Positions 8,288-29,200 of a stretch of 33,116 nt of DNA are shown here, one piece after another (the stretch's first letter is position 1; each line of letters begins with the position of its first letter). Source of the DNA: Deltaproteobacteria bacterium (GTDB lineage Bacteria > Desulfobacterota > Desulfarculia > Adiutricales > Adiutricaceae); contig JAISWF010000245.1 of NCBI GenBank assembly GCA_031271165.1, positions 1 through 33,116 on the forward strand, written 5' to 3'. The notes below the pieces were generated by a model. The model ran no database searches. It saw nothing but the letters and a program-made list of their open reading frames with translations, and had not been told where the DNA came from. A program made the position numbers and the translations under genes.

Positions 8288-10825
8288 TTAAGCCCAGGCC
8301 ACCAAGCCCAAGACGAAGGGGTTGCCCAATTTCTCCCGGCTGGGGGTAACCCGGACGGTGTAGCCGAAACGACCGGGTCGTTTGCAGCTGATCTGCCCCT
8401 GAAAGACGAAGGTGCTTGGTTGGCTCTCCGAGACTTTGGTCATGGGAAGAGTCAACCGGTCAAGAAATTCGCCTTGGTGGTCCATGTTGCCATAGTAGGC
8501 TTCCACCGACACGTCGTCGGGCCGAAGCTGGCCGAGGCGAACGTTGGCTGTGACGGTGACCTCATCGCCGACAGTTTTAAGGCCGGCTCCGTCGCCTTTA
8601 AGCTCAAGAATTTGGACGTCGTTCCAGCTGGTCATCAACTTGTTACACCAGGCGGCCTGCTCGGTCGCCAGTTTAAAGTTTTGCCGGCTGAGGCTATTGT
8701 AGCGTTCGGAGGACTGCCGATAGAACCGCTCATAATAATCGGTGACCATCCGGTGGGAACTGAAGCGGGGCACCAGATCCTTAATACTGTTGCGCATCAT
8801 GTCGCACCAGACTACGGGGATGCCGTCTGAGGTTCGGGTATAGAAGTTAGGGGCCACCTGGTGCTCCAGGAGGTTGTAGAGGGCCTGGCTTTCGGTCAGA
8901 TCCTGCAATTCCTGGTTGGAGTCGACTTCGCCGCTGCCGATGGCCCAGCCATATTGGGGCGCATACCCCTCATCCCACCAGCCGTCGAGAACCGACAGGT
9001 TCAACACGCCGTTGGCCAGCGCTTTCATCCCGCTGGTGCCACAGGCTTCCAGCGGCCGGCGGGGGTTGTTGAGCCAAACATCGCAGCCAGCGGTCAAAAG
9101 AGAGGCCAAGTGGATGTTGTAGTTTTCCAAAAACATAATCCGGTTTTGAAAGCGTTCTTCGCGGGAATAGTGGATAATGCTTTTGATAAAGGCCTTGCCT
9201 TCGTTGTCCTGGGGGTGGGCTTTTCCGGCGATAATGATCTGGATAGGCCGCTGGGGATTGTTAAGGATTTTATCAAGGCGATCGGGATCAGAGAAAAGAA
9301 GGGTGGCCCTCTTATAAGTCGCAAAACGTCTGGCAAATCCGATGGTCAGGGTATCGGGGCTAAATAGTTCCATGGCCTTTTGTAAAACGTCAGCCGTGGC
9401 CCCCTGCTTTTTAAGCTGCCGGAACTGGCTGCGCCGGGCAAAGGCGATCAGTCTCTCCCGGCAGTGACAATGGGCCCGCCAGAGTTCAGAGAGGGGGATT
9501 TGGCTGACTGACTCCCAAATGCGCTCGGGATCGGGGTCTTCCTTCCAGTTCTGGCCGAGATAACGGGTAAATAGGCGGGCGATTTCCCTCGATGCCCAGG
9601 TCGAAACGTGGACGCCGTTGGTGACCGAATCAATGGGCGTATCCTGGACCGGAGTCCGGGGCCAGATGTTCTGCCACATGCTGCGGCTGACCAGACCGTG
9701 GAGTTTACTGACTCCGTTGGCATGGGCACTGAACCTCAGTGATAGCGGAGTGACCCCAAAAGGCTCGCTTTCGTCGCGGGGGTTGACCCGGCAGTAACCC
9801 AGAAGGACCGGCCAGCTGATGCCCAGCTCTTTGGCGTATTCCTCAAAATAGCTGCGGGCCAGATCGGGCGAGAAGGTGTCGTTGCCAGCCGGAACCGGAG
9901 TGTGGGTAGTAAAGACGGTGGAAGAACGGACCACTTCTCTGGCCGCATCAAAACTTAGGCCATGATCTTTTCTGAGGATGTTGATGCGCTCTAAAGCTGA
10001 AAAGGCGCTGTGACCTTCGTTCATGTGGATGACCGTAGGAGTAATGCCCATGGCTTTCAGGGCTCTGACTCCGCCTACGCCCAGGACGATTTCCTGGCGA
10101 ATGCGCATTTCGCGGTCGCCGCCGTAAAGCTGGTCCGTGGTCGCCCGAATGTCGGGGGGGTTTTCGTCAAGATCAGTATCCAAAAGGTACAGCGGTACAC
10201 GGCCGACTTGGGCCTTCCAGACAGCGATGGCGGCCTGGCGGTCTTTAAACCTGACCGAGACCTTAACTGGCTGGCCGCTGGCATCGACGATCTGGGTGAG
10301 GGGAAGGGTATCAAAGGAGTTGGTCGGATACCTTTCCATCTGCCAGCCGTCGTTGTTGAGGTACTGCTGAAAATAGCCCTCCTGGTACAAAAGGCCAACG
10401 GCAATAAGCGGGATATTGACGTCCGAGGCCGATTTGAGATGGTCGCCGGCCAAGATCCCCAAGCCGCCCGAGTAGATGGGCAGGCAGCTGGTCAGGCCGA
10501 ACTCAGCCGAGAAATAAGCCACGCAGGTTTTATCGACTTCCTTGGGTGGGGTTTTGACGTAAAGGTCAAAACGGTGAGCGATCTCCTCAAGCTGAGAGGT
10601 AAAGCCGGTGTCATTTTCCAGCTCGTCGAGACGCTGCTGATCCACCAGGCCAAGCAGAAGAACCGGGTTATTGCCGGTGTCGGCCCAGAGTTTGGGATCG
10701 ATGCGTTGGAAAATGTCCCTGATCTCGCTGTGCCAGCTGAACATGACGTTGTAGGCCATACGTTTGAGATGGGCCAGACGCTCCGGGATCCGAGGCTGGA
10801 CTTTGAATTCCTGTTTGGCTTTCAT
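8288..10825 (-). CDS. glgP: Alpha-glucan (glycogen/maltodextrin) phosphorylase, GT35
   Basis: Cytosolic PLP enzyme that releases glucose-1-phosphate from the non-reducing end of alpha-1,4-glucans. It belongs to the divergent phosphorylase subfamily that begins RIPERLAHLKRMAYNVMFSW (residues ~13-32), not the E. coli MalP type. Landmarks in order: AYFSAEFGL and YSGGLGILAGDHLKSASD in the N-domain, HMNEGHSAF and TTHTPVPAGND in the middle, and the PLP site EACGTSGMKALANGVLNLS with the cofactor lysine at residue 601, followed by VLDGWWDEGY. A C-terminal beta-rich extension (~residues 735-845) is also typical of this subfamily. Length 845 is normal. The ATG at 10825 has an AGGAG site 12 nt upstream. 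It is monocistronic with its own terminator; no glgB, glgC or glgA is adjacent. Confidence 0.95.
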   Translation of the reverse strand: MKAKQEFKVQPRIPERLAHLKRMAYNVMFSWHSEIRDIFQRIDPKLWADTGNNPVLLLGLVDQQRLDELENDTGFTSQLEEIAHRFDLYVKTPPKEVDKTCVAYFSAEFGLTSCLPIYSGGLGILAGDHLKSASDVNIPLIAVGLLYQEGYFQQYLNNDGWQMERYPTNSFDTLPLTQIVDASGQPVKVSVRFKDRQAAIAVWKAQVGRVPLYLLDTDLDENPPDIRATTDQLYGGDREMRIRQEIVLGVGGVRALKAMGITPTVIHMNEGHSAFSALERINILRKDHGLSFDAAREVVRSSTVFTTHTPVPAGNDTFSPDLARSYFEEYAKELGISWPVLLGYCRVNPRDESEPFGVTPLSLRFSAHANGVSKLHGLVSRSMWQNIWPRTPVQDTPIDSVTNGVHVSTWASREIARLFTRYLGQNWKEDPDPERIWESVSQIPLSELWRAHCHCRERLIAFARRSQFRQLKKQGATADVLQKAMELFSPDTLTIGFARRFATYKRATLLFSDPDRLDKILNNPQRPIQIIIAGKAHPQDNEGKAFIKSIIHYSREERFQNRIMFLENYNIHLASLLTAGCDVWLNNPRRPLEACGTSGMKALANGVLNLSVLDGWWDEGYAPQYGWAIGSGEVDSNQELQDLTESQALYNLLEHQVAPNFYTRTSDGIPVVWCDMMRNSIKDLVPRFSSHRMVTDYYERFYRQSSERYNSLSRQNFKLATEQAAWCNKLMTSWNDVQILELKGDGAGLKTVGDEVTVTANVRLGQLRPDDVSVEAYYGNMDHQGEFLDRLTLPMTKVSESQPSTFVFQGQISCKRPGRFGYTVRVTPSREKLGNPFVLGLVAWA

Positions 10826-11243
10826 AAAGGTTTTTGGCTCCTGTAGGATAAATTTAGAACTAAAGAGAGATGTTGGAAAATTAAGAGATGTAAAATAATT
10901 TTTGTAAAAATATTAAAATTTCAATTTCTAAGTCAGATAGCAGGATGTTTGAAGTCAGATTTGTTGGTCAAGTCGGGCATCCCCGATAGGCTAAAACCAA
11001 GTTATTATACCAAATTCTAACATTTTTCCCTCTTAACCGTCAATAGCCAGCCCATAACTGTCGGCGTAAACCGCTGAGCCAAGGATAGCTCTGGCCATTT
11101 ACGCCAATCACCGGCTTGGGGGCTAATTGGGGATAATAAGGGGTCCACTTTTCAACGAAATTTTTGGAATACTTAACCCCTACATTGTTGGTTGAGATAC
11201 TCACCTGATAACTTTGGAAAACAAAACAGATTCTCTGGTCAGC
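10826..11243. other. glgP leader and junction to the accessory island
   Basis: Holds the AT-rich glgP upstream region (10840-10960, promoter not clearly resolved). Base composition and character then change toward the island. Short open frames here have no ribosome sites or recognisable content; I treat them as noise. Confidence 0.4.
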
Positions 11244-11279
11244 AGCAACCTTGGAGGTCATGGAGGTAACGAAATGGCT
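11244..11279 (+). repeat. 36-bp direct repeat, left copy (island border candidate)
   Basis: It begins AGCAACCTTG and ends GAAATGGCT, and matches 33081-33116 at 33 of 36 positions in the same orientation. Each copy contains GGAGGTAAC followed by ATGGCT, that is, a ribosome site and start codon. In this copy the reading frame stops at the next codon (ATG GCT TGA), so it looks like the 5' stub of a lost gene or insertion-sequence gene. Confidence 0.7.
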
Positions 11280-11953
11280 TGAGCCTATGGTCTAAAGTCT
11301 CTTGCAAGAGAGGCGGTGAGCGTAGAGGCGGGTAATATGTGTCAATATTGAGCAGGTCTCGAAATGTTTATTGCGGATGCCGACCCGCCTGGAAAAAGGG
11401 TAAGGCTGAGGGCTTTGCGTAATATCAGGCCAGGTCAACCACCGGTAACTGAAAACGGCTTGAAGTATCCAGCGTATCACATCGTTTCCGGCGGGGTAAT
11501 GGCAACGACTTGTACGTCAATTGGTGAATATGGCAGTTCAGTAAGCCCTTGAGGTTCCCTCAGACGATGAAAGTAGACTGAGGTAAAACCAGCAGAGCGG
11601 ATAATTCGGAAGGCCTGGGCCGAAAAGGGTGGCGGCTTGGTCCATAGTACTGAAATAGACATCGGTGGTCCGGTTACCGAAAAGACGGCTGTCCGATAGA
11701 TACCAGGTAATGCTGGCCGAAAGAATGGGTGTCGAATGAATGGGCCCTCAGTTTTACATGGGTAACTTAGTGAGGACGAAAACATCAAAACCCAATCCTA
11801 AGGGAGATAGGCCAGAATCAGCATCGAAAAAAAGAGGGTTGATTTTTAAAAAACTAAAACTTCGTCCGTATACCTTAGTGAGGACAAGAAACAGTCAACA
11901 ACAAACCGTAAGGACAAACCCTAAGGAGACAGGCCAAACCATCTTAGTCAAAT
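11280..11953. other. Decayed gene-free spacer at the start of the island
   Basis: No coding region is supported; the open frames lack ribosome sites and recognisable domains. From about 11,766 it carries the imperfect direct repeat annotated separately. The texture is that of degraded accessory DNA. Confidence 0.45.
11766..11936 (+). repeat. Two imperfect direct repeats upstream of the NYN gene
   Basis: Copy 1 (11766-11814) and copy 2 (11874-11936) both start CTTAGTGAGGAC and both end in CCTAAGG, GAGA, AGGCCA, about 108 bp apart. The middles diverge. CCTAAGGAG occurs again just before the small gene at 12,711, so the repeats may be decayed copies of a gene leader. Confidence 0.5.
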
Positions 11954-11980: not shown

Positions 11981-12057
11981 TTCACCTGAATACTTACTTC
12001 ATGGCGAGAAAAGACGAAACCAACTTTAATTCTAAACAAAAAAAGGAGTCAAAAAAA

Positions 12058-12633
12058 GTGGAAAAAATGCTCATCTTTCAAGACGCTGCCAACATTGAAG
12101 CAGCCTACCGTACTTTTAGTACTCATTGGCATGGTCCACGAAAACCACTTGACCATCGGGACTTGCTGAACTATCTATCGGAATCCCGTTATTTGGTTGA
12201 TGCGTTTTGTTACCTGCCCATTGATCCCCGTCGGCCCATGGAGCGAAGCGGTGTCATTGAGCACTACTGGGAAAGCGGATGGCACGTTCAGGAAAAAATG
12301 GGCAAAATCGCCGGCGACAGTTATAAGTGCAACGTGGATGTTGAAATGGCCTTGGACATTATAGACCTTTGCCGAGATATACGTCCTGACACGGTAGTGA
12401 TCTGTTCTGGTGATGAAGATTTTCTGCCTCTAGTTTCGCGTCTTCGCCGCCTTGGTATTCGAGTTGAGATAGCATCTTTTTCAGGTTCAACTGCCAGAGC
12501 CTTATGTCGTCAAGCATCTGGTTTCGTTAACCTTGATATCTATGCCCAAGAATGGCTAACTCACCAAACGGAGCTGGAAGGCTTTGAGGCCAATTATGAT
12601 GATCCAACCGGCTTTAATGAGGATGAGGGATAG
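12058..12633 (+). CDS. NYN (PIN-like) domain ribonuclease, LabA/DUF88 type
   Basis: Predicted metal-dependent endoribonuclease. The NYN fold is recognisable by MLIFQDAANIEAAYR (first acidic Asp with Asn), KCNVDVEMALDIIDLC, VVICSGDEDFLPLVSRLRRLGIRVEI, and a final VNLDIYAQEW strand-helix; the spaced Asp residues form the usual active site. I prefer the GTG at 12058 because AGGAG (12044-12048) is 9 nt upstream. An in-frame ATG at 12001 would add 19 Lys-rich residues and lacks a ribosome site. It is the first gene of the cluster with the ubiquitin-like/E2 and JAB/E1 fusions, so it may be the RNA-cutting effector or a regulator of that system; this is inference from context. Confidence 0.85.
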   Translation: MEKMLIFQDAANIEAAYRTFSTHWHGPRKPLDHRDLLNYLSESRYLVDAFCYLPIDPRRPMERSGVIEHYWESGWHVQEKMGKIAGDSYKCNVDVEMALDIIDLCRDIRPDTVVICSGDEDFLPLVSRLRRLGIRVEIASFSGSTARALCRQASGFVNLDIYAQEWLTHQTELEGFEANYDDPTGFNEDEG

Positions 12634-12710
12634 CCGGACGACAACATCAGAGGCTTGGCCTAAACCTATAACCGGCCAATTTTAACTAATTAATATCCTA
12701 AGGAGCTTGT

Positions 12711-13037
12711 ATGAAAATTCCTCACGCCAACCACTACGAGAGTAACTGTTATCGGGAAGATTGTACGTTTGAAATCCAGAGCCCTTTGTCTACATCCACT
12801 TCCCTGCAGCTTGAAAGTCAGCCCAATGAGCTGGGAAATTTGATGAAAATTCCTCACGCCAATAACTACGAAAAATACTGTCATAAGGAAGATTGGTTTA
12901 TTGAAAACAGTTCTTCTCAGTTTGTTCCTAACCCGCAGCCGCCAGAAAATGAGACTGAATCTAAAAAATCGGCGGCCTCCATACTATTGATTGGTGCTGG
13001 TCTCTTAGCGGCTCTTTACGCAATATTCAGTGATTAG
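12711..13037 (+). CDS. Small membrane protein with an internally duplicated 44-residue unit
   Basis: I do not recognise a known family. The 108 residues consist of two related units starting MKIPHANHYESNCYREDC (residue 1) and MKIPHANNYEKYCHKEDW (residue 45), spaced by exactly 132 bp. A linker and one C-terminal hydrophobic helix (SAASILLIGAGLLAALYAIF) follow. AAGGAG lies 8 nt before the ATG; the internal ATG at 12843 heads the second unit and could be a second start. After the TAG the same frame stays open for 47 more codons to a TAA at 13179, with coding-like content (GDGHWSYNSNKGQITIYARS), so the gene may be a shortened form of a longer one. It lies between the NYN gene and the Ub/E2 gene. 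Confidence 0.65.
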   Translation: MKIPHANHYESNCYREDCTFEIQSPLSTSTSLQLESQPNELGNLMKIPHANNYEKYCHKEDWFIENSSSQFVPNPQPPENETESKKSAASILLIGAGLLAALYAIFSD

Positions 13038-13269
13038 TTTTTGCAACAAAAGACAGGAAGCCAAGGAGATGGCCATTGGAGCTACAACAGTAATAAAGGA
13101 CAAATCACCATCTACGCCAGAAGCATGCCCTGGGAGCAATGCCGGAAAACTGAACTAAACCAACCAGCCGGTGGCGAATAATATAAGCGGCGACCAGAAA
13201 GGTACCAGGGATATGGAACCAAACCATTGCCACTCGCAACATCATCTATTGTCAGCCTTGTCAGTTGAA

Positions 13270-13345
13270 AGGAGCTTGAATAAAAATTCCTCTAATAGGG
13301 GCTGGCCTGTTAGTTCTTAGGGCAGTTATTGAATATTATTTATCA
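13270..13345 (+). pseudogene. Degenerate third copy of the small membrane protein gene
   Basis: AGGAGCTTG followed by TAAAAATTCCTC copies the leader and first codons of the gene at 12711, where AGGAGCTTGT precedes ATGAAAATTCCTCACGCC, but the ATG is lost. The sequence then jumps to a copy of the membrane helix (LIGAGLLVL). The middle of the unit is deleted. The frame remains open into the next gene. Confidence 0.55.
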
Positions 13346-13350
13346 AAATT

Positions 13351-13393
13351 CTACCACCAACACCAACACCACCACCACCAACAACAACAACAG
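13351..13393 (+). repeat. CAC/CAA trinucleotide repeat before the Ub/E2 start
   Basis: A run of CCA/ACA units (read as alternating CAC and CAA codons) ends directly in the AGGAG ribosome site of the next gene. In that gene's frame it would encode a His/Gln tract. Such tracts are prone to slippage and could vary in length between strains. Confidence 0.7.
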
Positions 13394-13405
13394 GAGACGA
13401 ATGAC

Positions 13406-14110
13406 ATGGGCAACTTGCACAACAACAACCAAGGGCAAACTATCGTTATTAATGGTCGGCGTATACCCATAGGCAATGGCCTACACGGGCATCAACTTAA
13501 CCAGGCAGCCGGTGCCAAGCGGGGACGACGCACGGTAATGGTCGATGGAATAAAGGTACAAACCGTTGAACACCATCATTTTTATCATCCACATGAATTA
13601 GTCGGTCGCAATGGAAAACCGATAAAGGTCAATTCCATTCCAGATCGTACCAAAGGAGGGTTATTCGACGAAAAACGTGACCAAGCATCCAAAGACCTGA
13701 TCCGGCGCCAAATTTACGACCTGGCTGCTAATTTCGCCCATGGCGGTTTGGATTTCGACGAAGACAATTCTAACTGGGTGATCTTTCCGCACTTTAAAAT
13801 GCCGGAAGCTTGGGGCGTTAGTACTTCGGCCCTTATGGTGATTTTTCCTGATGATTACCCCAGGATACCACCGATCGGATTTTACCTTCCCAGCAAACTT
13901 AGCTCCCCGTACGGGCACTTCTTTAACCAAACCTACCATGAGGCCAGTGGCGCGCCAATTAAGGAGGGTTGGAACTGGTATTGCTGTTACATCTCTGGTG
14001 TCTGGCGTCCGGCCCCAGATGATGGACGTAATGGTTGGAAATTTGGCGATAACCTCTGGACTTATCTGACTTTGATCAATGAGGTATTAACGTCAGGCCC
14101 TACCGAATAA
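13406..14110 (+). CDS. Ubiquitin-like domain fused to a prokaryotic E2 (UBC-fold) domain
   Basis: Predicted to combine a ubiquitin-like protein and its conjugating enzyme. Residues ~12-90 (QTIVINGRRIPIG, GHQLNQAAGAKRG, HELVGRNGKPIKVNSIP) follow the pattern of multiubiquitin-type beta-grasp domains. Residues ~95-234 resemble prokaryotic E2 families: FPHFKMPEAWG, the beta-strand LMVIFPDDYPRIPPIGFYLP, and the C-terminal WNWYCCYISGVWRPAPDDG with LWTYLTLINEVL. The adjacent Cys193-Cys194 are the best candidates for the thioester residue. The Ub-like domain is not followed by a free Gly-Gly C-terminus. AGGAG lies 9 nt before the ATG. The same frame is open upstream through the His/Gln repeat to 13280, but without a usual start codon. 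The next gene supplies E1 and JAB activities. Confidence 0.8.
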   Translation: MGNLHNNNQGQTIVINGRRIPIGNGLHGHQLNQAAGAKRGRRTVMVDGIKVQTVEHHHFYHPHELVGRNGKPIKVNSIPDRTKGGLFDEKRDQASKDLIRRQIYDLAANFAHGGLDFDEDNSNWVIFPHFKMPEAWGVSTSALMVIFPDDYPRIPPIGFYLPSKLSSPYGHFFNQTYHEASGAPIKEGWNWYCCYISGVWRPAPDDGRNGWKFGDNLWTYLTLINEVLTSGPTE

Positions 14111-14205
14111 GCCTGAAGCGAAGTCATAGTCACTGGCCGGGTACTATTATGCACCGGCCAGTAGTCGAAATTATCACTCATCCGAATTGGCCAAGGGGAT
14201 AGGTA

Positions 14206-15570
14206 ATGAAAAAGCCTGAATGTATCATCCGTTTCCCTCAAGGTAAACTGTTAGAACTTCGCCGGGAACTGTTAAAAGATTCTAGCCGAGAAGCCTTCGC
14301 CGTCCTGATCGGCAAAAAGCGAGAAATCGGTGAACACTGTATAATTGTAGTTGGAGATGTCTATTATCCTCAACCAAGTGAATACATTAATCAATCCCGT
14401 ACTCAGCTACGCATGAAAAAGAGCTTCATATACAGGGTCATGGCCGAGGCCCAAACTCGTCCTAATGTAGATACAATCATAGATGTGCATACGCACCCGT
14501 TCACTGACAGGGCGTGGTTTTCTCAGCAAGATGATGTCGATGAAATTAATTATTTCCAGTTCTTAGACAGCGAGGAACTTCCTTTTAGCTACGGTAGTAT
14601 CGTTCTTTCCCAAAAAACTGGCCAAGCCCGCATGTGGTATATGAATAATTTGCGTCCAGAGTATAAAGTTGCCGCCATCAAAACCCAGACGGCCTTAGAA
14701 GCCTTACCAACGACTGAAAACGAGAGCGACATTTTAGATGACGAACAAAAATCCAGAACCTTGTTGAGTCTTGGTGTGGATACCATGCGCCGAATAATTG
14801 CCGACCAATGCATAGTTTTAGCTGGTGTAGGCGGCCTTGGTTCGGTAATGGCTGAAAACTTGGTGCACCAAGGTTTTGAGCATTTAGTTTTGATTGATAA
14901 CGATATTCTTGATCATTCAAGTCTAAATCGCTTCGTTGGTGGTACCTTTGATGATGCAGAAAAAAAAAGACCCAAGGTAGAAGTCGTGGCCTCTCACCTA
15001 CAAGCTATTAATCCTCAAGCCAATGTAGAGACGGTGTTCAAACAGGTTGATTCGTTGGAAGCTGAGGAAAAAATGGCTTTGGCTGATTGGATTTTACTAT
15101 CCACCGACAACCACACAAGTCGCTATCAAGTTCAAAAGGCAGCATTGACCTATGGTGTGCCTTTGATCTCAGCCGGTGTTAACATAACCGTTAGGCATGA
15201 AAACGGTCGTCATGTCATAGTTGACCGAAGTGGAGAGGTTATCGTGGTCAGACTTGGCGACCACTTCTGCTTGAATTGTCTTGGACGCATAAATCTTGCC
15301 CTTTTGTCTGCTGAAAGCCATCCCGACCCAGAAGTCAGAGCTAAAACTATCTCTCGCGGCTATGTTTTAGGAGCCGAAGTTAAAGAGCCAGCGGTAAAAA
15401 CTCTTAATTCTGTCATAGGGGCGATGGCCATCGAAAGTTTGACAAACCAATATAAGGAAGATATGATCCATGAACCTATACTAGTGTACGAAAGTCATCA
15501 CGGGCTCTGTATGTATCCCGATCGAAGTACTTTTTCTCTTTTAGAAACTGGCTGCGCTAGTTGTCACTGA
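14206..15570 (+). CDS. JAB/JAMM peptidase fused to an E1 (ThiF-type) activating enzyme
   Basis: A two-enzyme fusion: deconjugating metalloprotease plus Ub-like activating enzyme. Residues 1-165 are the JAB domain, with Glu29 (SSREAFAVLIG) and the complete motif His95-x-His97-x8-Ser106-x2-Asp109. From ~residue 185 comes the E1/ThiF Rossmann domain: nucleotide loop AGVGGLGS (206-213), LVLIDNDILDHSSLNR with the catalytic Asn/Arg, Lys in KKRPKVE, and LSTDNHTSRYQV. Two CxxC pairs, Cys355/Cys358 and Cys450/Cys453, are placed like the zinc ligands of MoeB/ThiF. It probably activates the Ub-like domain of the upstream protein and can trim or reverse its conjugates. AAGGGGA precedes the ATG. A terminator follows at about 15,664. 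Confidence 0.9.
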   Translation: MKKPECIIRFPQGKLLELRRELLKDSSREAFAVLIGKKREIGEHCIIVVGDVYYPQPSEYINQSRTQLRMKKSFIYRVMAEAQTRPNVDTIIDVHTHPFTDRAWFSQQDDVDEINYFQFLDSEELPFSYGSIVLSQKTGQARMWYMNNLRPEYKVAAIKTQTALEALPTTENESDILDDEQKSRTLLSLGVDTMRRIIADQCIVLAGVGGLGSVMAENLVHQGFEHLVLIDNDILDHSSLNRFVGGTFDDAEKKRPKVEVVASHLQAINPQANVETVFKQVDSLEAEEKMALADWILLSTDNHTSRYQVQKAALTYGVPLISAGVNITVRHENGRHVIVDRSGEVIVVRLGDHFCLNCLGRINLALLSAESHPDPEVRAKTISRGYVLGAEVKEPAVKTLNSVIGAMAIESLTNQYKEDMIHEPILVYESHHGLCMYPDRSTFSLLETGCASCH

Positions 15571-17337: not shown

Positions 17338-18393
17338 GTGGCCGGAGAACGTTTACCAAGGCCTGGAAATGTTATGGGTGAAGAGTCTACAATTTTTGAA
17401 TTATTGAGACTTAATGGCTGGATTGAGCACTTAGATGGCTGGCGTAAAGCTGCAGTTCGAAAGCTGCGATCTTTAAGAATTTCTTCTAAGTATGACGATC
17501 AAGACATCAATTCGGCTTTGAATCAAGCATTTGAAGACGATAAACTCCTTGAATCTTTGAAAAAAAATGATGCTGGTTTGTTTCGCTATATCTGGAAAAC
17601 TAAAGCCCACAGTATTTTGTCCGATAAATTTCGAAACCATCAATACCGAGCTATAAGGGACAATGTAAAAAAACTCCATGATCAGGGATACTTATTTTAT
17701 CTGCCTGGAAAAAGGATGTCCAGTAACCCCTATAGCTATTTCGCTGCGGGACAAAAGGCTGATTTACCGAAGTTTATAGGGCAGTACCTGTCGGAAACTC
17801 CAAGATTTGACGAACTGGAGGCTCCAAAAATAGACGGCATAGATAAGTCAACTGAGTTTGTGAGAATTGCTGCCAAGTCTTTATGGTCTCAATATGCAAC
17901 AATAATTCCGCCTCCAGCTTATCTGTCTCTAAAGGAATTTCAGGTTTTTATAAATCATAAATTTAACATATCGGTTATAACAAAATATTTGCCAGCTAAT
18001 GTTCGATCTGTTGAATTAAAATTAAATCAATCTGAACAATGTAGTTATTTTGGCAGTCATGAATTAGATGAAACTGAAATCAGTAATCGTTTTGCACAAA
18101 TAGAGACATTAATTGATAGTTTATTTAGTCTTTTTAGTCAAAAAAGTCTGATAATTTTTTGCTTGGTAACTTCAAATTTAACTTTAGAGGAAATTGCCAA
18201 ATACGTTGATTTGAACAGTCCAGCCTCGGTTAGTTACCATTACAATAAGGCCTTAAAAATAGTTAAAGACTTTTGTAGCCGTCAACCAATGCTGGCCGAC
18301 ACCGATTGTGATCCAAAAATGCGAGAGGTCTTTACTCAAGCTTTGTGCAAGCAATGCGAAGCGGTTGCTTCTGAGATTAAACAAGGGAGGTAA
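17338..18393 (+). CDS. Sigma-70-like transcription factor (CalpS-like position)
   Basis: Predicted RNA polymerase sigma factor or sigma-derived regulator. The N-terminal third (around DDQDINSALNQAFEDDKLLESLKKNDAGLFRYIWKT, residues ~53-88) has the helical texture of a sigma region 2. The C-terminal part ends in a sigma region 4-like helix-turn-helix, LTLEEIAKYVDLNSPASVSYHYNKA (residues ~281-305), preceded by the helical pair RFAQIETLIDSLFSLF. The central ~140 residues are unassigned. The 351-residue length exceeds an ECF sigma. The GTG at 17338 has AAGGGA upstream; an in-frame ATG at 17374 is the alternative. It is the first gene of a three-gene operon with a MazF-like protein and a Lon-like protease, which suggests a sigma factor held inactive and freed by proteolysis. 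Assignment is by pattern only. Confidence 0.62.
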   Translation: MAGERLPRPGNVMGEESTIFELLRLNGWIEHLDGWRKAAVRKLRSLRISSKYDDQDINSALNQAFEDDKLLESLKKNDAGLFRYIWKTKAHSILSDKFRNHQYRAIRDNVKKLHDQGYLFYLPGKRMSSNPYSYFAAGQKADLPKFIGQYLSETPRFDELEAPKIDGIDKSTEFVRIAAKSLWSQYATIIPPPAYLSLKEFQVFINHKFNISVITKYLPANVRSVELKLNQSEQCSYFGSHELDETEISNRFAQIETLIDSLFSLFSQKSLIIFCLVTSNLTLEEIAKYVDLNSPASVSYHYNKALKIVKDFCSRQPMLADTDCDPKMREVFTQALCKQCEAVASEIKQGR

Positions 18394-18398
18394 GGAAA

Positions 18399-19352
18399 GT
18401 GCAGCTCAACTTTTTTAGTAATAATCCTACTATTGAGCCTCAAGGGGAGTTATTAGAAACTTGGCAAGCTCATTACGCCTGGCGTACAGCGCCTCCCGCT
18501 GGACCTGAGGTCCTTAAGCTTCTGACGAAGTCACTTCCTGAGTCTTTCTCAGCCCCGGCACCTGGTCAGCTCTGGCTTTTAAAAAATGAGCTTGACGGCC
18601 CAGACGAAGATGGTCTTTACCTGAACATGCCCATGGTGCTAATCATTTCTGCCTCTAATTTAAAATTCGAAGTAATGCAAACTGCGCCTTTTTCTGACTT
18701 AATGGGTCCCACTGATATCTATCTTAGCGACGACGACGGCTTTGTCGAGCCCTGGAATCGATTCACCTTGCCTCCTAAAGCTCTTAAGGAGTACCGAGGC
18801 AAGCTTGAACCTGGACTTTTGGAACGCATAAAAACTGCCAACCCTTGGCGTCCGATTTCATCTGGTTTAGATTGGGAGGAAGCCTTTTGGCGCTTGGAAC
18901 GCCAAGTGGCGGAGGCTGCTCGCCAGCGGGCTGCGGTGTGGCAATATGCTTCAGCCTCCTCGCCAAGTAAAATTGAAACAATTTGGAATAATCCTAGACA
19001 ATTAGCTGTAGAACTAATCCCGCCATCAACTACCTGGAGACTTCCTTTAGCTGCGGCTTCCAAAGAAAGCGTGGGCATCTCTTTCAGAACCCCAGATGGC
19101 TGGAAACTTGGAGTGGCCAATATCACTGGAGTCATTGAAGAAAATGGTTGGGTTACCCTCAAAGGCGAACTGAAAGCTCCAGGCAATTATTCGATGGACG
19201 CTTTCTTCGCTTTGGTTAAACAAGAGGGAGGAGAAGCAAATCTACCTGAGAAAATCCAGTTTACCCCGCCCTTCTTTGAGCTTGAATTTGCATCTGTTGA
19301 ATCGTTTAACCCTAATCAGTTGCAACTTTTGGTTATAAGCTATGGTGCCTAG
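18399..19352 (+). CDS. MazF/PemK-like N-domain protein, putative anti-sigma (CalpT-like)
   Basis: Residues ~53-130 have the layout of the MazF/PemK SH3-like barrel: APGQLWLLKN, then PMVLIISASN, MQTAPFSDLMGPTDIYL, and the typical end EPWNRFTLPPKAL. A helical linker (~145-185, QVAEAARQRAAVW) and a beta-rich C-terminal domain (~200-317, including GISFRTPDGWKLGVANITG) follow. Toxin activity is doubtful; in the Calp system a MazF-like protein serves as the cleavable inhibitor of a sigma factor. The GTG start has GGGAGG 8 nt upstream and lies only 5 nt after the sigma-like gene. Its end overlaps the Lon-like gene by 11 nt, so the three are co-translated. I infer the role of protease substrate holding the sigma-like protein; the sequence alone does not show it. 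Confidence 0.6.
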   Translation: MQLNFFSNNPTIEPQGELLETWQAHYAWRTAPPAGPEVLKLLTKSLPESFSAPAPGQLWLLKNELDGPDEDGLYLNMPMVLIISASNLKFEVMQTAPFSDLMGPTDIYLSDDDGFVEPWNRFTLPPKALKEYRGKLEPGLLERIKTANPWRPISSGLDWEEAFWRLERQVAEAARQRAAVWQYASASSPSKIETIWNNPRQLAVELIPPSTTWRLPLAAASKESVGISFRTPDGWKLGVANITGVIEENGWVTLKGELKAPGNYSMDAFFALVKQEGGEANLPEKIQFTPPFFELEFASVESFNPNQLQLLVISYGA

Positions 19353-21435
19353 ACGGCCGGTGACCATTGAAATGGCCGAAATGACGGCCCAGGCGGGCTG
19401 CGGTACACTTGCAGATTATCTTCACCATTGGCTGCAAAAATCCTGCCTTCCTCTGATTGGCCCCTTAACCAAAGCTGAACTTACCAATCTTCTCCAAAGC
19501 GCTGGCGAATATGCCAAACCTTTGGCCTTGCGCCTGGCGGCCAGTGCTTTGTTGAGTAGAGAGATTGCTCAAGATGCCGTGAAGCTATTGGAGGAACACC
19601 TTGATGTCCCTTTGACAGATTGGTCTCGGGCTTATTGGCTTCAACTGGAAATTCCCTGTTTCAATAGTGAAAGTTCCTCTTTGGTTCCCGTTTTAGTTGG
19701 ACATACCATCTCAAAGCTTACAGATTCTTCCCTAATTGGCTTTCTGCCTGACAGCTGCCAAGCCATAAGATTGGCCTTGAAGCTAGCTGAGGAAAAATGG
19801 GGTGGTCAGGGATTGATATGGAATTGGAGCGGTACTGGCATTACGGGAGAATCTTTGGGATTACCGCTGTATTTAGGCCTTTGCAGTGCCGCTAATGGTA
19901 GGACCCAGCCTGACACATTAGCTAGCGGACGGCTTTTGTCTGATGGCCGAATTGCTGAAGTCGAAGGTCTAGAAAAAAAAGTTGCTTTAGCTGGTTGCCG
20001 AGGATTCATCATTCCAGAAGCAAATTTAACTTCAGAATTATCAGCCTTACCTCAGATTATACCAGTTGCTAACATTGACGATGCCTTGGAGTTGTGGTTC
20101 GATTGCGGTTCCGGATCCTCTCCTATGGCGGTTATTGAATTGCGCAGGGCTTTGAAAGAGCCCGAAAAACTTTTTTCTCGTCTTTTAAGTCTGACCGATG
20201 CAGATTGGCAGTATGTCGATCGCCCCTGTCATCGGCAACAAATTTACCAAGCGGTTCTCAATAATCCTATAGAGGCTAATAGTCTCAACTATATCTTTAG
20301 AGAGATACGTGGGCCTAAAAACAAAAATCGGCAGAAGGCCCGTGATTTTTTAACTCTGTTTGACTTCGACCTTATCCGGAGCATTGGTGAAAAGTCGCCA
20401 GTTCTAGCTTGGCGACTGGCCATATTGTGTGGTGGGGAATCCAACCATAATGGTCGGATCGATGATGCCGGTCAATATTTTGATCTGGCGGCTACCTTTG
20501 AGAGTTCTATTGAAGCTGATGAAGAACCAGAAGAGCTAATCGCCGGTGTCATCTCAAAATTAATGTTCAAGCATAACAAATATAATTTTCTCGGTGAGCC
20601 TCTCGAACTAATTGGTCCCCGCCTTTGGGGGTTGTTTGAAGATAAGAGGCGCTCTCAAAGCTATCGCCTTAAGGAGGGGAAAAAACCAGCCGACAAAGCT
20701 TTGGGTGATTTTTTCGGAGCTTGTGGCCAGCATTTGGCCTTTCAAGGGAAATGGACGCAAGCAGAGAGACGATTCAGCCAAGCCTTAGAATGTTTTACCT
20801 CCGATGATGACCGTATTCAAACCTTTGGCTATCAATTGTTTAATCATCTGGAAGCGGGCGAACTTCCTCAAGCTCGAGCCAAGCTTGTGGCTATTTGGAA
20901 AGGCCCTGATTTATCGTATGACAGAGCATCCAAACTCTCAAGCCATATCCGTCCCTGGGCCTTGTTTGCCCTTGCTCGTTATCAGGCAGAGGCTGGTGAC
21001 GCCGGAGCTGAGGCCCAGTGTTTATTAGAAAAACTGGCTCAGGAACTTTCTGATAATAATACAGCTTTTGGTGAACGCGTCCTCCAGGACAGCAGGCACC
21101 TGCATCCGTGGCAATTAATTATTTACAATCTAGGCCTAGCCATAGACAACGAGCTGGTTAAAAGAACTCTCTGGAGTCGCTGTCTGGACCTCTGTCTTGA
21201 CGCCAATGATAGACCAACAATAAAAGCCATGGCCTTTTTACCATTGTCAGCCTTACACCATTATGGTCTAGATAGTACTCTTCAGAATCAGACCTTAAAT
21301 ACGATTTTCAGCTATATTGATGAGGTACTCTATCGCCCGCATTTTCAAATACTTTTCCAGGCCGCCAGCTTTACTGAAGCCATGGAGCTAACATTTTGTC
21401 GGCGAAAAGAACTTTTCCCGTTCAATTATCGGTGA
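19342..21435 (+). CDS. Lon-type (S16) protease domain with helical repeat C-terminal region
   Basis: A stand-alone Lon proteolytic domain without an AAA+ motor. Residues ~105-250 align with the Lon core: VPVLVGHT, the serine loop TGESLGLPLYLGLCSA with Ser171, LASGRLLSDGRIAEVEGLEKKVALAG with Lys213, GFIIPEANL, and IPVANIDDALELWF. The Ser-Lys spacing (42) is nearly that of E. coli Lon (43). Residues ~255-697 are helical with TPR-like units (QHLAFQGKWTQAERRFSQAL), the motif HPWQLIIY (from residue 588), and the exact C-terminus PFNYR. Both motifs recur in the 909-residue protein downstream. The start overlaps the MazF-like gene. I expect a regulated protease whose C-terminal region senses a signal, with the MazF-like neighbour as likely substrate. 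No SAVED domain is apparent. Confidence 0.8.
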   Translation: MVPRRPVTIEMAEMTAQAGCGTLADYLHHWLQKSCLPLIGPLTKAELTNLLQSAGEYAKPLALRLAASALLSREIAQDAVKLLEEHLDVPLTDWSRAYWLQLEIPCFNSESSSLVPVLVGHTISKLTDSSLIGFLPDSCQAIRLALKLAEEKWGGQGLIWNWSGTGITGESLGLPLYLGLCSAANGRTQPDTLASGRLLSDGRIAEVEGLEKKVALAGCRGFIIPEANLTSELSALPQIIPVANIDDALELWFDCGSGSSPMAVIELRRALKEPEKLFSRLLSLTDADWQYVDRPCHRQQIYQAVLNNPIEANSLNYIFREIRGPKNKNRQKARDFLTLFDFDLIRSIGEKSPVLAWRLAILCGGESNHNGRIDDAGQYFDLAATFESSIEADEEPEELIAGVISKLMFKHNKYNFLGEPLELIGPRLWGLFEDKRRSQSYRLKEGKKPADKALGDFFGACGQHLAFQGKWTQAERRFSQALECFTSDDDRIQTFGYQLFNHLEAGELPQARAKLVAIWKGPDLSYDRASKLSSHIRPWALFALARYQAEAGDAGAEAQCLLEKLAQELSDNNTAFGERVLQDSRHLHPWQLIIYNLGLAIDNELVKRTLWSRCLDLCLDANDRPTIKAMAFLPLSALHHYGLDSTLQNQTLNTIFSYIDEVLYRPHFQILFQAASFTEAMELTFCRRKELFPFNYR

Positions 21436-21772: not shown

Positions 21773-22882
21773 TCAAGCGATTAACTGTGGATACAGAGGG
21801 GTCAGTTTGAATCTGGCCTCCTCCGGTTGCGAGCTGCCAATTGATTTTTTTACGGGCTCATTTCTTGTTTTGGCCCAAGCCTTGGTTTCGTCATCACAAT
21901 ACGTTGGTACTGCGCAAGCTCAACGGCGATTTTTCAAGACCTTGAGCTTGAGCTCGGCCAGGTTCAGCCATGCTTAGGGCTATGATGGAACTCCAGCTTA
22001 TGTAATATTCTCCTGACCCTCTTCTGGAGGAAAAGTCTCATCATGTAGCGCCGCCGGACGGTGGGCGCTAAGGCCTTCGCCGACCAGTTTAATTCTCTCA
22101 ACATTGGGGAAGTCCACGTCAACCAGTTTTTGGATTTTTGAGCTCACTCCACCCAAGTGCGTCTTTGAGATCACGTCGACTCATCGCCCGCCATCATGTG
22201 GGGCCGAAAAAATGAGCCAAGTCACGAGTTCCGATACGTTTATACTCATGGCCAAATTCTTCGGTCGAGCCAGGTCTTCCCGGCCAACGCAGCTCAAGCT
22301 TTTCAAGCAACTGTTTTGGGCATTCATCCATGCAGACCAAGGGGTTATCAGGGTCTGGCGGTTGCATGTCCCCCTCCAGGACATCCTCCATAGTCGCCAC
22401 GAAGTCGGCATAGCCTTAGTTGGTATAGACCTCTCTTTTTGCGACAAAGGCTTAAGGGTGGACTTGAGCCAAGTCTTTCGAATGGTCTCCGGCGAGACAT
22501 GCTCTCCTTTTCGGTGGAAACAAAATTTCGGGTCAACTTTCGGAGTGACCAATGATTGGCCCCGTCTTCCCTCTCATCGCTGGCCAATTTTATCAAAAGG
22601 GCAACGCTTTCGCCGGGCATGATTGGGGCTGGTTGGGCTCTAGGAATGCCTAAAGCAAGCCTCAAAACCCGCCTAAGCGAAGCACTTTCTAATATCCTCA
22701 ATCAAGCGACGAGGCCTTAAAAAGAGAGTCAGCGATTCGCTGATTGGTTTTGGTATTGTCGCGGCCATGTAAGAGAGCTAAAGCTTTTTTAAGTTTAGAA
22801 GTTGATGAGTTTCCACGCCATGCGAACTATTCAAACTCTTCCAAGGCGGCCCTTTCGTCGGGAGATAACCAGATTGTATGTT
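21773..22882 (-). pseudogene. Degenerate IS630-family transposase
   Basis: Read on the minus strand, pieces of an IS630 DDE transposase occur in order but in different frames with stops between: LSPDERAALEEFE and KKALALLHGRDN (N-terminal helices), NHWSLRKLTRNFV, SPETIRKTWLKSTLKPLSQ, then VCMDECPKQLLEKLEL and PGSTEEFGHEYKRIGTRDL, then WVDWAHKIKKLVDVDFPNVERI, AWLNLAELKLKVL, and finally LTPLYPQLIA. The first catalytic Asp (VCMDE) is kept, but the expected second (VMDN) reads VGEG, so it is inactive. Frameshifts and nonsense codons show long decay. I could not fix terminal inverted repeats. It marks past transposition between the two gene groups of the island. Confidence 0.85.
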
Positions 22883-23446: not shown

Positions 23447-26176
23447 ATGGGCAGTATTAGTAAATGTATGGACAATGATTACTTAAAAACAAAACAAATC
23501 GAAGCTGCTGAACTAGCTAAAGATTGGATTATAGCTGTAGTCTCAGGCAACAAGGAAAAAAGTAAAATACTGTCTGACAGAATTAGAAATTCTCACGACT
23601 CCCACCTGATGATCATATCTGCTATTAGCAGATTAATTGGAATTACTGGACAAAGTTTCAGTTCTCTGATTAGCGGCTTTACTGATCAAGGCAGTGAAAT
23701 AAATTTTTATTCGGACAATGTGGCTGAATGGCAGCCGATTGCCAATTCCCCAGCTGTCCCAATTTCACAATCCTTTCAAGAGAAAGACTACAAGTCACTA
23801 CTCTTAGATTTTCAAAAAAAGGTTAGTTGGGACTCCCCTGAAAATGAAATATCTCAGTTGAAAAGTCAGATTCTCCAATTCAAAATTGAAAAATCAAAAG
23901 CTCAAAAAGAAGAAGATATTAAGCTCGCTGAAAAACGGGGACTATCTTTCAAGGTTCAGGAACAAAAATTTAATAAGGCCTTGAAAAAGGGACCTCTTTC
24001 AGACTGCGTCCTTAGCGCTTACCAAACGGCAGAAGAATTCTACAAAAAGAAGGCCGAGAAAAACTTGACTAACTCTCTAATGCTAACCGCAAACCGCTTG
24101 GTGGGAGATGCGGAGAGATTTGATAGTTTTATCCAACAAGCGACCGAACGTTATCCATTTGCCGCCGAATCACTTGCGATAAAAAAAGGGGAATTCGCAT
24201 CGAGCCTGATTAAATTAAAAAATGATAACTATCAATCGAAAACTATAGATGTTTATTCAGGTGCTGAACACAGAATTAATTTTTTGAATTATAGTTCATC
24301 TTGGACAACATATATTGATGAGACAGGTTTATGTTTTAACCCAGCTAATGTTGATGAAGTCGATGGAAAAGTGGTAGCAATTGTTGTTCCAGACTCCTTG
24401 AGACTACCACAAATCGATCCCCAATTCCACGCAACGACAAGTTTACCTAATGTCGTTCTAAGCAAACTTAATTCGTTACTAAGCCATAGTGTTGGTATTT
24501 TGGGGTTTACCGCCCGCTCCCTCCATGTTATGAATAGTGACGATTGGTTCCAAAACATACGAGCACTTCTCGGCTGGATCTGGCGGTTGTTACCTTTGCC
24601 TGGAGAAAACGCAGCTAAAGTTGTTCTGAACGTGATCATTGAAAACCGAAGAAATTACACTCCTGACATAAATATGGAGCCTATGGCTTGGGCAATAAAC
24701 CAAGACTGGGACAAAGAAAATCACGAACGCCATAAATATGTCACATTGGGGAATCTTGGCCTAGCCCCCAAAGGCATACAACCCGGTCTGGCTTGGGCTG
24801 ACGTAACAGCCTATTTATGGGGCTCGTCTAAAACAGAAATAAAAAAAGGATTAAAACAAAGCGGACTTGTTGGTACCTGTTTATTTGATTTAAAACGTGA
24901 TTTACTAGCTCTTTGTGTCAAAGCGTTGATCGGCTGCGACCTGCTGACCGGGCCAGAGTGGCAGCGTTTGATGGAAGAAAATGATGCCGATCGCCAAGGT
25001 AGCTTGGTCCAATTGGCGCTTGAATCTACTATGCGGTTTTGTCTCCAGTCACATGATCAAACAAGGATTTATATAGAGGCGTTACGCCAATATCTTGATA
25101 CCAAAAAATATGACCTGAAAATTCTCAATCGACAAATTAAATGGCTTAGTCAGGTCAATGCTGAAACAATCGCTCCAGATTTACGTTTTTATTGGGAATC
25201 CGCCAAACTGGCTCATCATAATCATTTAGGTGATTTTTCATCTGAGTCAGTTTTAGCAACGAGAAAGAAACTACAGGAGCTGATACCAGGTATAGGACAA
25301 AAAGACCCTCAGTCCGCTATTGAAGCCCGTCTCCGATTTGCCGTCATGTCTTTCAATGCCTTCGACTTCTCTAGCGCTAAAAATGAATTGGCCCCATATG
25401 ATGAAACTCAAGGCGGGCGGCTCCCAGAAGATGGTTTGTCCGCTGGCAAAGTTCTTAGCTGTCTCGGCCAGCTCGAAGCTTTTCTAGGTAATAATAGTCA
25501 AGCCTTAGAGTTGTTCGATCGAGCGGCTGAAGCTTTTTCAAGATTGGTACATCATCCTGAAGAAGTAACCAAGCAATTTGAGCAGACTAATATATACGCT
25601 GCCATTGCAGCTATGGATGACTTTTCAGTAACCAATGATGAGAAACGCCGCCGCATTGAAGTGGCGATTGGCAAAACGGTAGTGGAAGCCAGTCATAAGT
25701 TCAGTCAAAGTGACACTCTAAACGAGACCCGCTACCTACATCACTTACTTACTCGTTATTTGGTAAATTTAGGGCATAAAAGTGAAAAAGCTGCTTATCT
25801 TTTAAATTCATCTAAGTGGTTGATACCTGGCCTTGGTTTCATCAATGGTCACCCATGGTACCTAATTCAATATTACCGTTGGTTGATGCTCACTGAAGCT
25901 CAACCAGAGCAACAAAAACGAAACCACCAAATTCGGGAGAGCATTTTTGAGGATTGTATGCCAGCTTCTCCTGGACTAACAATTGATTTTATAGGCCTTG
26001 CTTTGGAAGTAGTCTCAGGACGCATATCTCAATTAGAAACCAAATTTAAACATAATTTAGTTCGGCTTCAAGAAAAAATACCCAAGGCAGAACCGTGGCT
26101 AAAAGCTTTGGAAAATATTTCTGCCGAAAGTGGACATCAATCGTTGACATCAATATTGCCATTCAATTACCGATAA
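23447..26176 (+). CDS. DUF3800-like (RNase H fold) protein with the shared HPW/PFNYR C-terminal region
   Basis: Residues ~1-260 are helical and charged (coiled-coil-like around QLKSQILQFKIEKSKAQKEED). The middle resembles DUF3800/RNase H-fold proteins: strand and acidic pair TYIDETGLCF (Asp291, Glu292), KVVAIVVPDS, VVLNVIIENR, and the late GLAPKGIQPGLAWADVTAYLWG with Asp452. This suggests a metal-dependent nuclease or a derived binding domain. Residues ~550-909 are helical TPR-like repeats (GQLEAFLGNNSQALELFDRA) with HPWYLIQY at 802 and the C-terminus PFNYR, both shared with the Lon-like protease at 19342-21435. The ATG lacks a strong ribosome site (ATG at 23468 is an alternative). The STAND gene starts 28 nt after its stop, so they are co-transcribed. 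Catalytic activity is inferred, not shown. Confidence 0.65.
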   Translation: MGSISKCMDNDYLKTKQIEAAELAKDWIIAVVSGNKEKSKILSDRIRNSHDSHLMIISAISRLIGITGQSFSSLISGFTDQGSEINFYSDNVAEWQPIANSPAVPISQSFQEKDYKSLLLDFQKKVSWDSPENEISQLKSQILQFKIEKSKAQKEEDIKLAEKRGLSFKVQEQKFNKALKKGPLSDCVLSAYQTAEEFYKKKAEKNLTNSLMLTANRLVGDAERFDSFIQQATERYPFAAESLAIKKGEFASSLIKLKNDNYQSKTIDVYSGAEHRINFLNYSSSWTTYIDETGLCFNPANVDEVDGKVVAIVVPDSLRLPQIDPQFHATTSLPNVVLSKLNSLLSHSVGILGFTARSLHVMNSDDWFQNIRALLGWIWRLLPLPGENAAKVVLNVIIENRRNYTPDINMEPMAWAINQDWDKENHERHKYVTLGNLGLAPKGIQPGLAWADVTAYLWGSSKTEIKKGLKQSGLVGTCLFDLKRDLLALCVKALIGCDLLTGPEWQRLMEENDADRQGSLVQLALESTMRFCLQSHDQTRIYIEALRQYLDTKKYDLKILNRQIKWLSQVNAETIAPDLRFYWESAKLAHHNHLGDFSSESVLATRKKLQELIPGIGQKDPQSAIEARLRFAVMSFNAFDFSSAKNELAPYDETQGGRLPEDGLSAGKVLSCLGQLEAFLGNNSQALELFDRAAEAFSRLVHHPEEVTKQFEQTNIYAAIAAMDDFSVTNDEKRRRIEVAIGKTVVEASHKFSQSDTLNETRYLHHLLTRYLVNLGHKSEKAAYLLNSSKWLIPGLGFINGHPWYLIQYYRWLMLTEAQPEQQKRNHQIRESIFEDCMPASPGLTIDFIGLALEVVSGRISQLETKFKHNLVRLQEKIPKAEPWLKALENISAESGHQSLTSILPFNYR

Positions 26177-26204: not shown

Positions 26205-29200
26205 ATGCCGATTGATGCAATAGATTTTAAAGAAGATGTTTCTGAAGGTGATGTAGTTACTTTACTAGAAGATGATGGTGTTCAATGGATAGGAACAATT
26301 GTCGCTATAAGAAATTCAAGTGTTAAATTACTGCCTTTGGACGACCCAACCGGCACTCCTGTAACTATCCTTTATGAAAGCGTCAAACGATACCGTCCTG
26401 GCCGGACTAATTTGACTCTTAAATCTGGAACCACGACCACGACCTCTGAAGCGGCATTGACATCATCTAACACTGTTGTCAATAGTGTAGCACAAAATAA
26501 TGCTGTCCAGGCCAAGCTTGATCTTTTATTAGAACGTTTTAAATCGTCTTTAGAGCGACCGCTTTTGGATGAGGTAAAGCCCGATTTTTTTCGAAGCCAA
26601 GCTGATTCATTATCATATACTAGTAAAGTTGATATTGAAAAAGAAATTAATAAGTCTAAAAATATATATGATACAGCATATAATCGTAAAGAGTTGGCGA
26701 GATTAAACAATGCAATAGGTAATTTAGGAAAATCTATCACTCGTTACCCTAGAGAAGCAGTTTTTTATTCATTAAAAGGTATTTTTTTGTTTAATCTTAA
26801 TAAAAAAGATGAGGCAATTGAATATCTAATGATTGCCGCTGGCTTATCAAATACAAATAGCGATTGGCTTAATTTAGCGCTCCTTACACCCTATTACCCA
26901 CTTAAGGCCCTGGCATTTCGCAATTATTTTGTCGTTTCAAGCTCTGTAATTGAAAATAAATATTGGTATGCATTTGTAAATGCATCATGTGAATCATCTT
27001 CTTTTTCAAGTCTTAGCCGTTTAATTAATAAATATATTCAAAACAATAAAAATAGTGGGCAATTAGAGTTAATAGCTAATACTATTGTATTTTTGTTTGA
27101 TAAATTGGGCTCTAAAGATGATGCTCTAGCTGCCATAATTGAATTGGAAAAGAAATCTGATTTGCTATCAACAGTACAGAAATTATATCTAACTTTACAA
27201 TCTTTAGTTGAAGGTAGAACTGAAGCAGCTTTACTTGAGGCTGAAAAAAAACTCAACACTTTAATTAATTCCCTGCCATCAGCTCAAACTCAACCATTGT
27301 CTGAATCATTGTCCACGCATGCTTCTTTTCACAGAATGCCAGGCATTGGAGCTGGTAAATTTTATTCTGGCTATGTTACTAGCTTTAGAAAAAATTCTAA
27401 TGACTCAAAGAGTTTTTTTTGGGAGGGATATATAGAAATTGATGGAAATAAAAAAGTTTATTACAGGTATTACGATAATTATATACCTGATAAAATACTG
27501 CACGATTGTTTATCGCGGGAAGATTTTACGCAACCTATATGTTTTAATATGATTAATAATTCTTTCGGGCAAAAACAAGCTATAAATTTATGCATAAAAC
27601 CGATTAATAAACTACAAAATGACGCAAATAAAGACAAATTAAGCCAACAAAAAGAATTTGATCTGATAAAGACGCCACATACCATTGAGCGAACTGGCGG
27701 GACAACTCTTTTGGCAAGAGCTAATTCTGCCATCCAAGCAGGAGATCGTGAACAAGCCGTGATTAGGCTATCAAATGGAGTCAAACAATTTCCGGATGAT
27801 GAACGTATCTTACTACTTTTAGCCCAGCAACTATCAGCACTTAATAAGTTTTCCGAGGCTTCTGATATATATTCAAGTCTTATTAATGTTGAAAAAAAAT
27901 TAAATCGTCCAAAGGCATTAAAAAATGCAGAAATACAATATGTTTTGCTTTCTATTAAATCAGGACGTATTGATACTGCCAAGATAAAATTGAAAAAACT
28001 AGTAGAAAAATACCCAAACGACGAATATTTAAAGCAATTAAATGAAAAAGCATCGACTGAGTTAATAATAGATTTAAATGATGAATCAAAGCTCGTTTGG
28101 GAGTCTTTAGATGAATTAGAGTCAGATATTTCCCCCTTTTTAAAAAGAGAACTTGAATCAGCCGGTTTTTATGATCGAATAATCTCAGAAAAGGGCGATA
28201 AACCTTCTCCTGAAGATGCCAAACGTTTGATGGCTGCAGCTATCAACTCGACAGCTAATGACCAGCATCCATTATTTCTTGAGGCGGCCAAAGCTTACAG
28301 TCTTCTCCCGCCCGGGAGTTTTGATCTTGATGAATACCACCTTTGTCTTTCAAGGTATGCCATGCAAAAGGCCAAGGTGCTGGTTGACCGAATGCTGTTC
28401 CTTTCAACGTCAGCCACATCAATAGAAAAAAATGCTGAAATACTCATGCAGCTTCGCGATAGTGCCACGAGTTACTATATTGAAGCCCTTTCTTGGCTTA
28501 AGCCTGAAAATGTTAAAGATGTCGGGTCATCAGTTATTAACTATTTTTTTAAAAGCTTATTAATTGGTTTTTTTGCCGAGTCACCGCATAATTTTTCCAA
28601 GGATATGCTATCTACCGAATTTAAAAAAGTTTTCAGAGAGGCGTTGACATCAAAAAATGAAGAATTATTTTACTTAGCGTGCAATGCAGTTCTAATATGG
28701 GGTAGTTACCCTCAAATTTGGAATATATTAGTAAACATACCTGATGGACCTGGGGCTGTGACCTGGTTAATGATGAAAGGTTCTTTTAAAAATCGGGTAG
28801 GTGAATTTTTTTCAAAACTTACCGGACAAAATATTCAAAATATTCAATTTATGTATCCTAGAGATATATTGCGCCAAGCATTTGAACATAGGCGCAAAGA
28901 GCGTGGTGATATGCATGCTTTTTGCAGAAATTTATTGATATCTCGTAATTTAAAGTCTTCAGAGTATTTTAGAGAGTTAAAATATTGTTTAACAAAGTTT
29001 CCTCGGGCTAACGGTTCGCTTTTTTCATCAGATATAATAATGTTTGAGCGCCTTAATGATATAATACAAGAAATGACGCCTTATAAGAATGCATCTTATG
29101 AGGAGCGTGGTGATATGCTTGTTAGAACACGTCTTAAGCTTTCGAATAACAAACAAAATTTAGGACTTTTAGAACATATCAACCAATCCCCAACTTATTG

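Follow-up and report, generated by a model that had tools for sequence, protein, structure and literature searches.

A Lon protease, MazF-like protein, and sigma factor cassette with a helical TPR-like module in Desulfobacterota and its link to type III CRISPR

A three-gene operon encoding a sigma-like protein, a protein with a MazF fold, and a Lon-type protease belongs to a conserved family of the phylum Desulfobacterota that is associated with type III CRISPR. It is best read as a variant of the Calp cascade, linked to type III CRISPR, in which a helical TPR-like module takes the place of the SAVED sensor of CalpL. We consider it reasonably probable that the operon is a Calp-type proteolytic sigma factor switch and that the family assists type III CRISPR in an ancillary role. 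The stretch of DNA analyzed (here called the window) comprises all 33,116 bases of contig C229, from a draft genome that is 82% complete and consists of 283 contigs.

The three open reading frames all lie on the plus strand and have the tight spacing described in the original prediction. The gene for the sigma-like protein (351 amino acids [aa]; positions 17338 to 18393) is followed after a 5-nt gap by that for the MazF-fold putative anti-sigma protein (317 aa; positions 18399 to 19352), which overlaps by 11 nt the gene for the Lon-type protease (697 aa; positions 19342 to 21435). A single-sequence Pfam search returned nothing above the cutoff for any of the three, as the window proteins are too divergent to be annotated in this way. 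Leave-one-out profiles built from relatives retrieve all of them, with E values of 6e-78 for Lon, 7e-16 for the sigma-like protein, and 1e-20 for the MazF-like protein.

Elsewhere on the contig, a row of genes at positions 12001 to 15570 encodes an NYN domain protein, a protein of 108 aa that contains an internal repeat (MKIPHANxYE), an E2-family-E protein, and a ThiF-JAB protein; this group is a cluster of the bacterial ubiquitin-like pathway type and probably serves in defense. A 609-aa protein with an AlbA_2/Schlafen domain is encoded at positions 31102 to 32931, with a P-loop NTPase part discernible upstream by eye, and a 1,135-aa flagellin with a very long central region is encoded on the minus strand at positions 2276 to 5683.

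Relatives were collected by way of the window Lon, which led to two distant homologs in the same phylum; at both of these loci, a sigma-like gene and a relative of the gene for the 317-aa protein lie upstream of lon. A three-row profile searched against 395 genomes of Desulfobacterota yielded about 20 Lon members, from which ordinary Lon and ComM-like proteins are clearly separated, matching in the catalytic region only. The neighborhoods of the members were scanned in six frames. The MazF-like family is present in 18 of the 395 genomes, and nearly all of its matches fall within Lon cassettes that include a sigma gene. The conserved co-occurrence of the trio, on which the original prediction partly turned, was therefore found.

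A fourth gene, encoding about 150 aa, was confidently matched in 14 of the 395 genomes and is always immediately upstream of the sigma gene. Its product contains conserved cysteines (an HP...CPC...GC pattern and a C-terminal C), as seen at L035, L004, L036, and eleven other loci. Searches of its family profile against the PDB and of single members against Pfam gave no match. A resemblance to MazF/PemK noted by eye was not borne out by these searches or by a profile comparison, in which the MazF-like family was not matched. The protein is a candidate for a functional counterpart of Csx31 of type III-E. The window has no remnant of this gene in any frame.

The Lon protein has a stand-alone Lon domain with an intact Ser171/Lys213 pair, in agreement with what had been proposed from the window. 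Both residues are invariant in the alignment of Lon relatives (20 of 20), Pfam Lon_C is matched in 7 of these 20, and the family profile matches solved Lon proteases (E value, 3e-16) and CalpL (5e-4) in the PDB. The AlphaFold model of the window protein (pLDDT 75) likewise gives a Foldseek match to the Lon domain (E value, 6e-5). Lon, TPR, and ChlI are the sole Pfam families matched among the relatives; no match to an AAA+ ATPase domain, which marks the ATP-dependent Lon proteases (LonA/LonB), was obtained in any of the 20, and the model has only some 90 to 130 residues ahead of the Lon fold.

The C-terminal part of the Lon protein, from about residue 260 to residue 690, is modeled as all helical and closes with a near-invariant FPFxYR motif (FPFNYR in the window). 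Neither a SAVED nor a CARF domain was matched in the protein, so the proposed replacement of SAVED by a long helical-repeat region is upheld. The window Lon resembles the CARF-Lon and SAVED-Lon effectors of PADLOC through weak profile matches in its Lon part (E values, 9e-4 to 0.06). In the Lon tree, it is placed among CRISPR-linked members, and its end branch of 2.08 marks it as a divergent copy; labeling the tree by proximity to CRISPR revealed no significant clustering.

The 317-aa protein consists of a degenerate N terminus, a MazF-like fold at about residues 55 to 146, a helix at residues 159 to 186, and a C-terminal beta domain. Its AlphaFold model is weak overall (pLDDT 58) and better in the MazF part (about 53 to 83), and the best PDB matches of the model in Foldseek are MazF toxins (E value, 3e-4; probability, 1.00), as expected from the MazF/PemK-like domain first read in the sequence. 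Whereas a MazEF module pairs a stand-alone MazF RNase with a MazE gene, the MazF fold here is embedded in a larger protein of a sigma/Lon operon. Most relatives carry an N-terminal HxxxCxxC motif (16 of 18 aligned MazF-like proteins) preceded by CPP and resembling zinc anti-sigma domains. The motif is absent from the window protein, which has lost it. With the fourth gene missing as well, the function of the window copy may be altered or weakened; a plain pseudogene is disfavored by its intact frames and its retained Ser/Lys pair.

The MazF fold would also suit an abortive toxin, in which cleavage by Lon sets the MazF-like domain free for RNase activity, with the sigma-like protein serving only as antitoxin or regulator. 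We regard this as quite unlikely, since the conserved residues of the MazF-like family show no evident counterpart of the Arg and Thr positions that we take to be catalytic in MazF and the zinc anti-sigma-type motif is found with an adjacent sigma gene in nearly all relatives. A toxin role was indeed the first to be proposed for CRISPR-T (PMC9704534), but in more recent work CalpT is regarded as an anti-sigma factor (PMC11417357).

The 351-aa protein of the window has no Pfam sigma match of its own, and its predicted sigma-4-like helix-turn-helix was confirmed through relatives. Sigma70_r4 is matched in 6 of 14 of these, the family profile matches region 4 of FliA in the PDB (E value, 6e-4), and the leave-one-out profile match covers residues 67 to 341 of the window protein. 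The protein is thus laid out as a region-2-like N-terminal part, a long insert, and the region 4 helix-turn-helix. Region 2 was read by eye, with one weak Sigma70_r2 Pfam match in the counterpart from genome G176. The sigma factor of the Calp operon is of the ECF type; of the sigma regions, the family described here shows region 4 by profile and region 2 weakly. Sigma-70-like TTGAC/TATA stretches were also seen by eye in the upstream regions of a few relatives.

Gene neighborhoods and genome content both tie the family to type III CRISPR. CRISPR arrays lie inside the fetched neighborhoods of about nine family loci, including L035, where an array with eleven copies of a 42-nt repeat starts about 200 nt after lon, and L048, with 23 copies. 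Neighboring genes include six for Cas1, six or seven with Csx1/CARF-HEPN matches, and three for CARF-adenosine deaminases (CARF-ADA). In ten genomes, Cas10 is encoded on the same contig as the cassette at a distance of about 8 to 35 kb. Cas10 is present in 16 of the 18 genomes with the TPR-type Lon, compared with 119 of all 395 genomes (P = 2e-7 by Fisher test, which somewhat overstates the evidence because kinship among genomes limits their independence). The fetched Cas10 proteins near cassettes have an intact GGDD motif, and cyclic oligoadenylates should therefore be available.

The original prediction held that no CRISPR genes are present and that the cassette is independent of CRISPR. The first statement is correct for the 33-kb window, in which no CRISPR array was found and the window proteins scanned with Pfam or PADLOC gave no cas family other than the weak CRISPR-Lon matches of Lon itself. 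It does not extend to the family or to the genome, where another contig (C179) encodes a complete type III-A system comprising Csx1, Cas6, Cas10 with GGDD, Csm3, Csm4, Cas4-Cas1, and an array. Because of this locus and the CRISPR neighbors of the relatives, the absence of CRISPR is a property of the contig rather than of the organism or family. That the window cassette acts without CRISPR, with another stress or phage signal received through the helical module, is therefore unlikely, even though the contig is free of cas genes and has other defense-like genes nearby (NYN, E2, ThiF-JAB, AlbA_2); the enrichment of Cas10 with the TPR-type family and the arrays that often adjoin its members speak against it, and the claim of independence is not supported.

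A sister form of the cassette also bears on this question. In genomes G049, G047, and G061, the helical region of the Lon C terminus is retained in its first part alone, and in G049 and G047, the remaining cassette is present, including the fourth gene. No strong Cas10 was found in these three genomes, which are too few for statistics and of which G061 is only 71% complete; weak matches in G047 and G061 (E value of about 1e-6, in frames of about 400 aa) were dismissed as ordinary nucleotide-cyclase-type domains. G049, a single-contig genome that is 98% complete, yielded neither Cas1 nor Cas10, which would favor a CRISPR-independent cascade, but its different C terminus limits what it says about the window. 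The sister form is the better candidate for a possible CRISPR-free cascade than the form in the window, and G049 offers a natural case for asking whether the cascade runs without CRISPR. Lon genes at L052 (positions 8464 to 10584), L054 (positions 9604 to 11736), and L117, from genomes without detectable Cas10, share the N-terminal half and have an unrelated C terminus with the conserved stretches YVFYRTE, SLNAV, and LGLIRAA.

The association with CRISPR could in principle reflect mere clustering in genomic islands, with the cassette controlling a housekeeping stress-response sigma regulon that has no part in defense. The distribution of the cassette, patchy yet widespread in one phylum, and the position of the window copy away from cas genes are compatible with such a role, which we nevertheless consider very improbable: arrays and type III effectors are repeatedly adjacent in divergent families, and the cassette is rare and is absent from the only other genome available for its genus and from those members of the family that were searched. 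An origin from a phage or plasmid is not supported either, since the viral contigs and plasmids searched contained no relatives.

The helical module is shared with a second enzyme of the window. A 909-aa open reading frame (positions 23447 to 26176, plus strand) combines DUF3800 with a C-terminal helical module that ends in LPFNYR, so that both window proteins end in PFNYR. Its DUF3800 motif and FNY terminus align with those of L005, L037, and L053, and a profile comparison of DUF3800-type with Lon-type C termini gives an E value of 2e-21. DUF3800 proteins with the module adjoin the cassette in G134 and G346. In G176, one is separated from a Cas10 by about 5 kb, and another, at L053 (G370, contig C138), immediately precedes a RAMP (Cmr1-like) gene, which suggests that DUF3800-TPR proteins are ancillary to type III systems in their own right. 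The occurrence of the module in two enzymes at the same loci would fit a common input domain, and the 909-aa protein is likely to be a partner or parallel effector of the Lon cassette.

A 1,556-aa protein is encoded from 28 nt after the DUF3800 gene (positions 26205 to 30875, plus strand), with a TPR-like N-terminal part and a P-loop ATPase motif near the C terminus, both read by eye. It had no match in a PADLOC search, and its membership in the cassette/module system is uncertain. The interval that separates the DUF3800 gene from the cassette contains, on the minus strand at positions 22100 to 22700, overlapping broken frames (PLVCMDECPKQLLEKLE) that resemble by eye a decayed IS630-type transposase.

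We know of two systems that join a CRISPR-associated protease to a sigma factor, Calp and Craspase. Calp reads a nucleotide, cA4, through the C-terminal SAVED domain of CalpL, and Craspase (CASP; type III-E, comprising Cas7-11, the TPR-CHAT protein Csx29, Csx30, CASP-sigma, and Csx31) has as its trigger the binding of target RNA to Cas7-11. In the Calp system, CalpL cleaves the anti-sigma factor CalpT to act on CalpS (PMC11417357), and a 23-kDa fragment of CalpT is MazF-like (PMC11417357, PMC9704534). The family described here has the same gene set, with a Lon domain lacking AAA+, a MazF-fold partner, and a sigma factor, and shares the link to type III CRISPR; the Calp logic first proposed thus stands in its composition but not in its independence from CRISPR. 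Unlike Calp, the family has an all-helical TPR-like C terminus in place of SAVED, and most relatives have the extra Cys-rich fourth gene and the zinc motif. The window copy also lies outside a cas locus, at least over 33 kb, whereas many relatives lie inside or near type III loci.

In Craspase, a protease is joined to a TPR-type region, the substrate inhibits a sigma factor, and a further conserved gene is present (PMC10028731). The family parallels each of these features, with a substrate that putatively holds the sigma factor, but its protease is Lon rather than CHAT and it accompanies Cas10-containing III-A/III-B systems, with GGDD in Cas10, rather than Cas7-11. Csx29 and Csx30 are absent among the PDB matches of the family profiles. 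The literature searched contained no description of a sigma cassette with a TPR-Lon protein.

By analogy with Calp, the MazF-fold protein would at rest keep the sigma factor inactive, in most relatives by means of the zinc anti-sigma-like N terminus. On infection, the helical module of Lon would take up a signal, the ATPase-free Lon domain would then cleave the MazF-fold protein, and the sigma factor would be freed to transcribe defense genes. Because SAVED is absent, the sensing step must differ from that of Calp, and the module is proposed to sense a partner protein or the effector complex of CRISPR, not cyclic oligoadenylate via SAVED or CARF. Our preferred guess is that the CRISPR complex triggers the module by direct contact, in the way that Cas7-11 is contacted by TPR-CHAT (PMC10028731, PMC9729208). 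A cyclic nucleotide sensed by an unrecognized site or by a partner may serve instead. More tentatively, the protease/anti-sigma/sigma cassette could be one with a swappable sensor, of which the form with the FPFNYR module shared with the DUF3800 protein is switched by contact with the Cas10 complex instead of a cyclic nucleotide, while the sister form, with its other C terminus, runs the same cascade in genomes that lack type III CRISPR.

The cassette probably acts as an alarm circuit by which genes are switched on when a virus attacks, with its trigger read in a manner not described before. The family joins a Calp-type Lon/MazF/sigma output to a TPR-like input, and the input domain appears to be exchangeable. 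It would represent a third, testable route by which type III immunity reprograms transcription.
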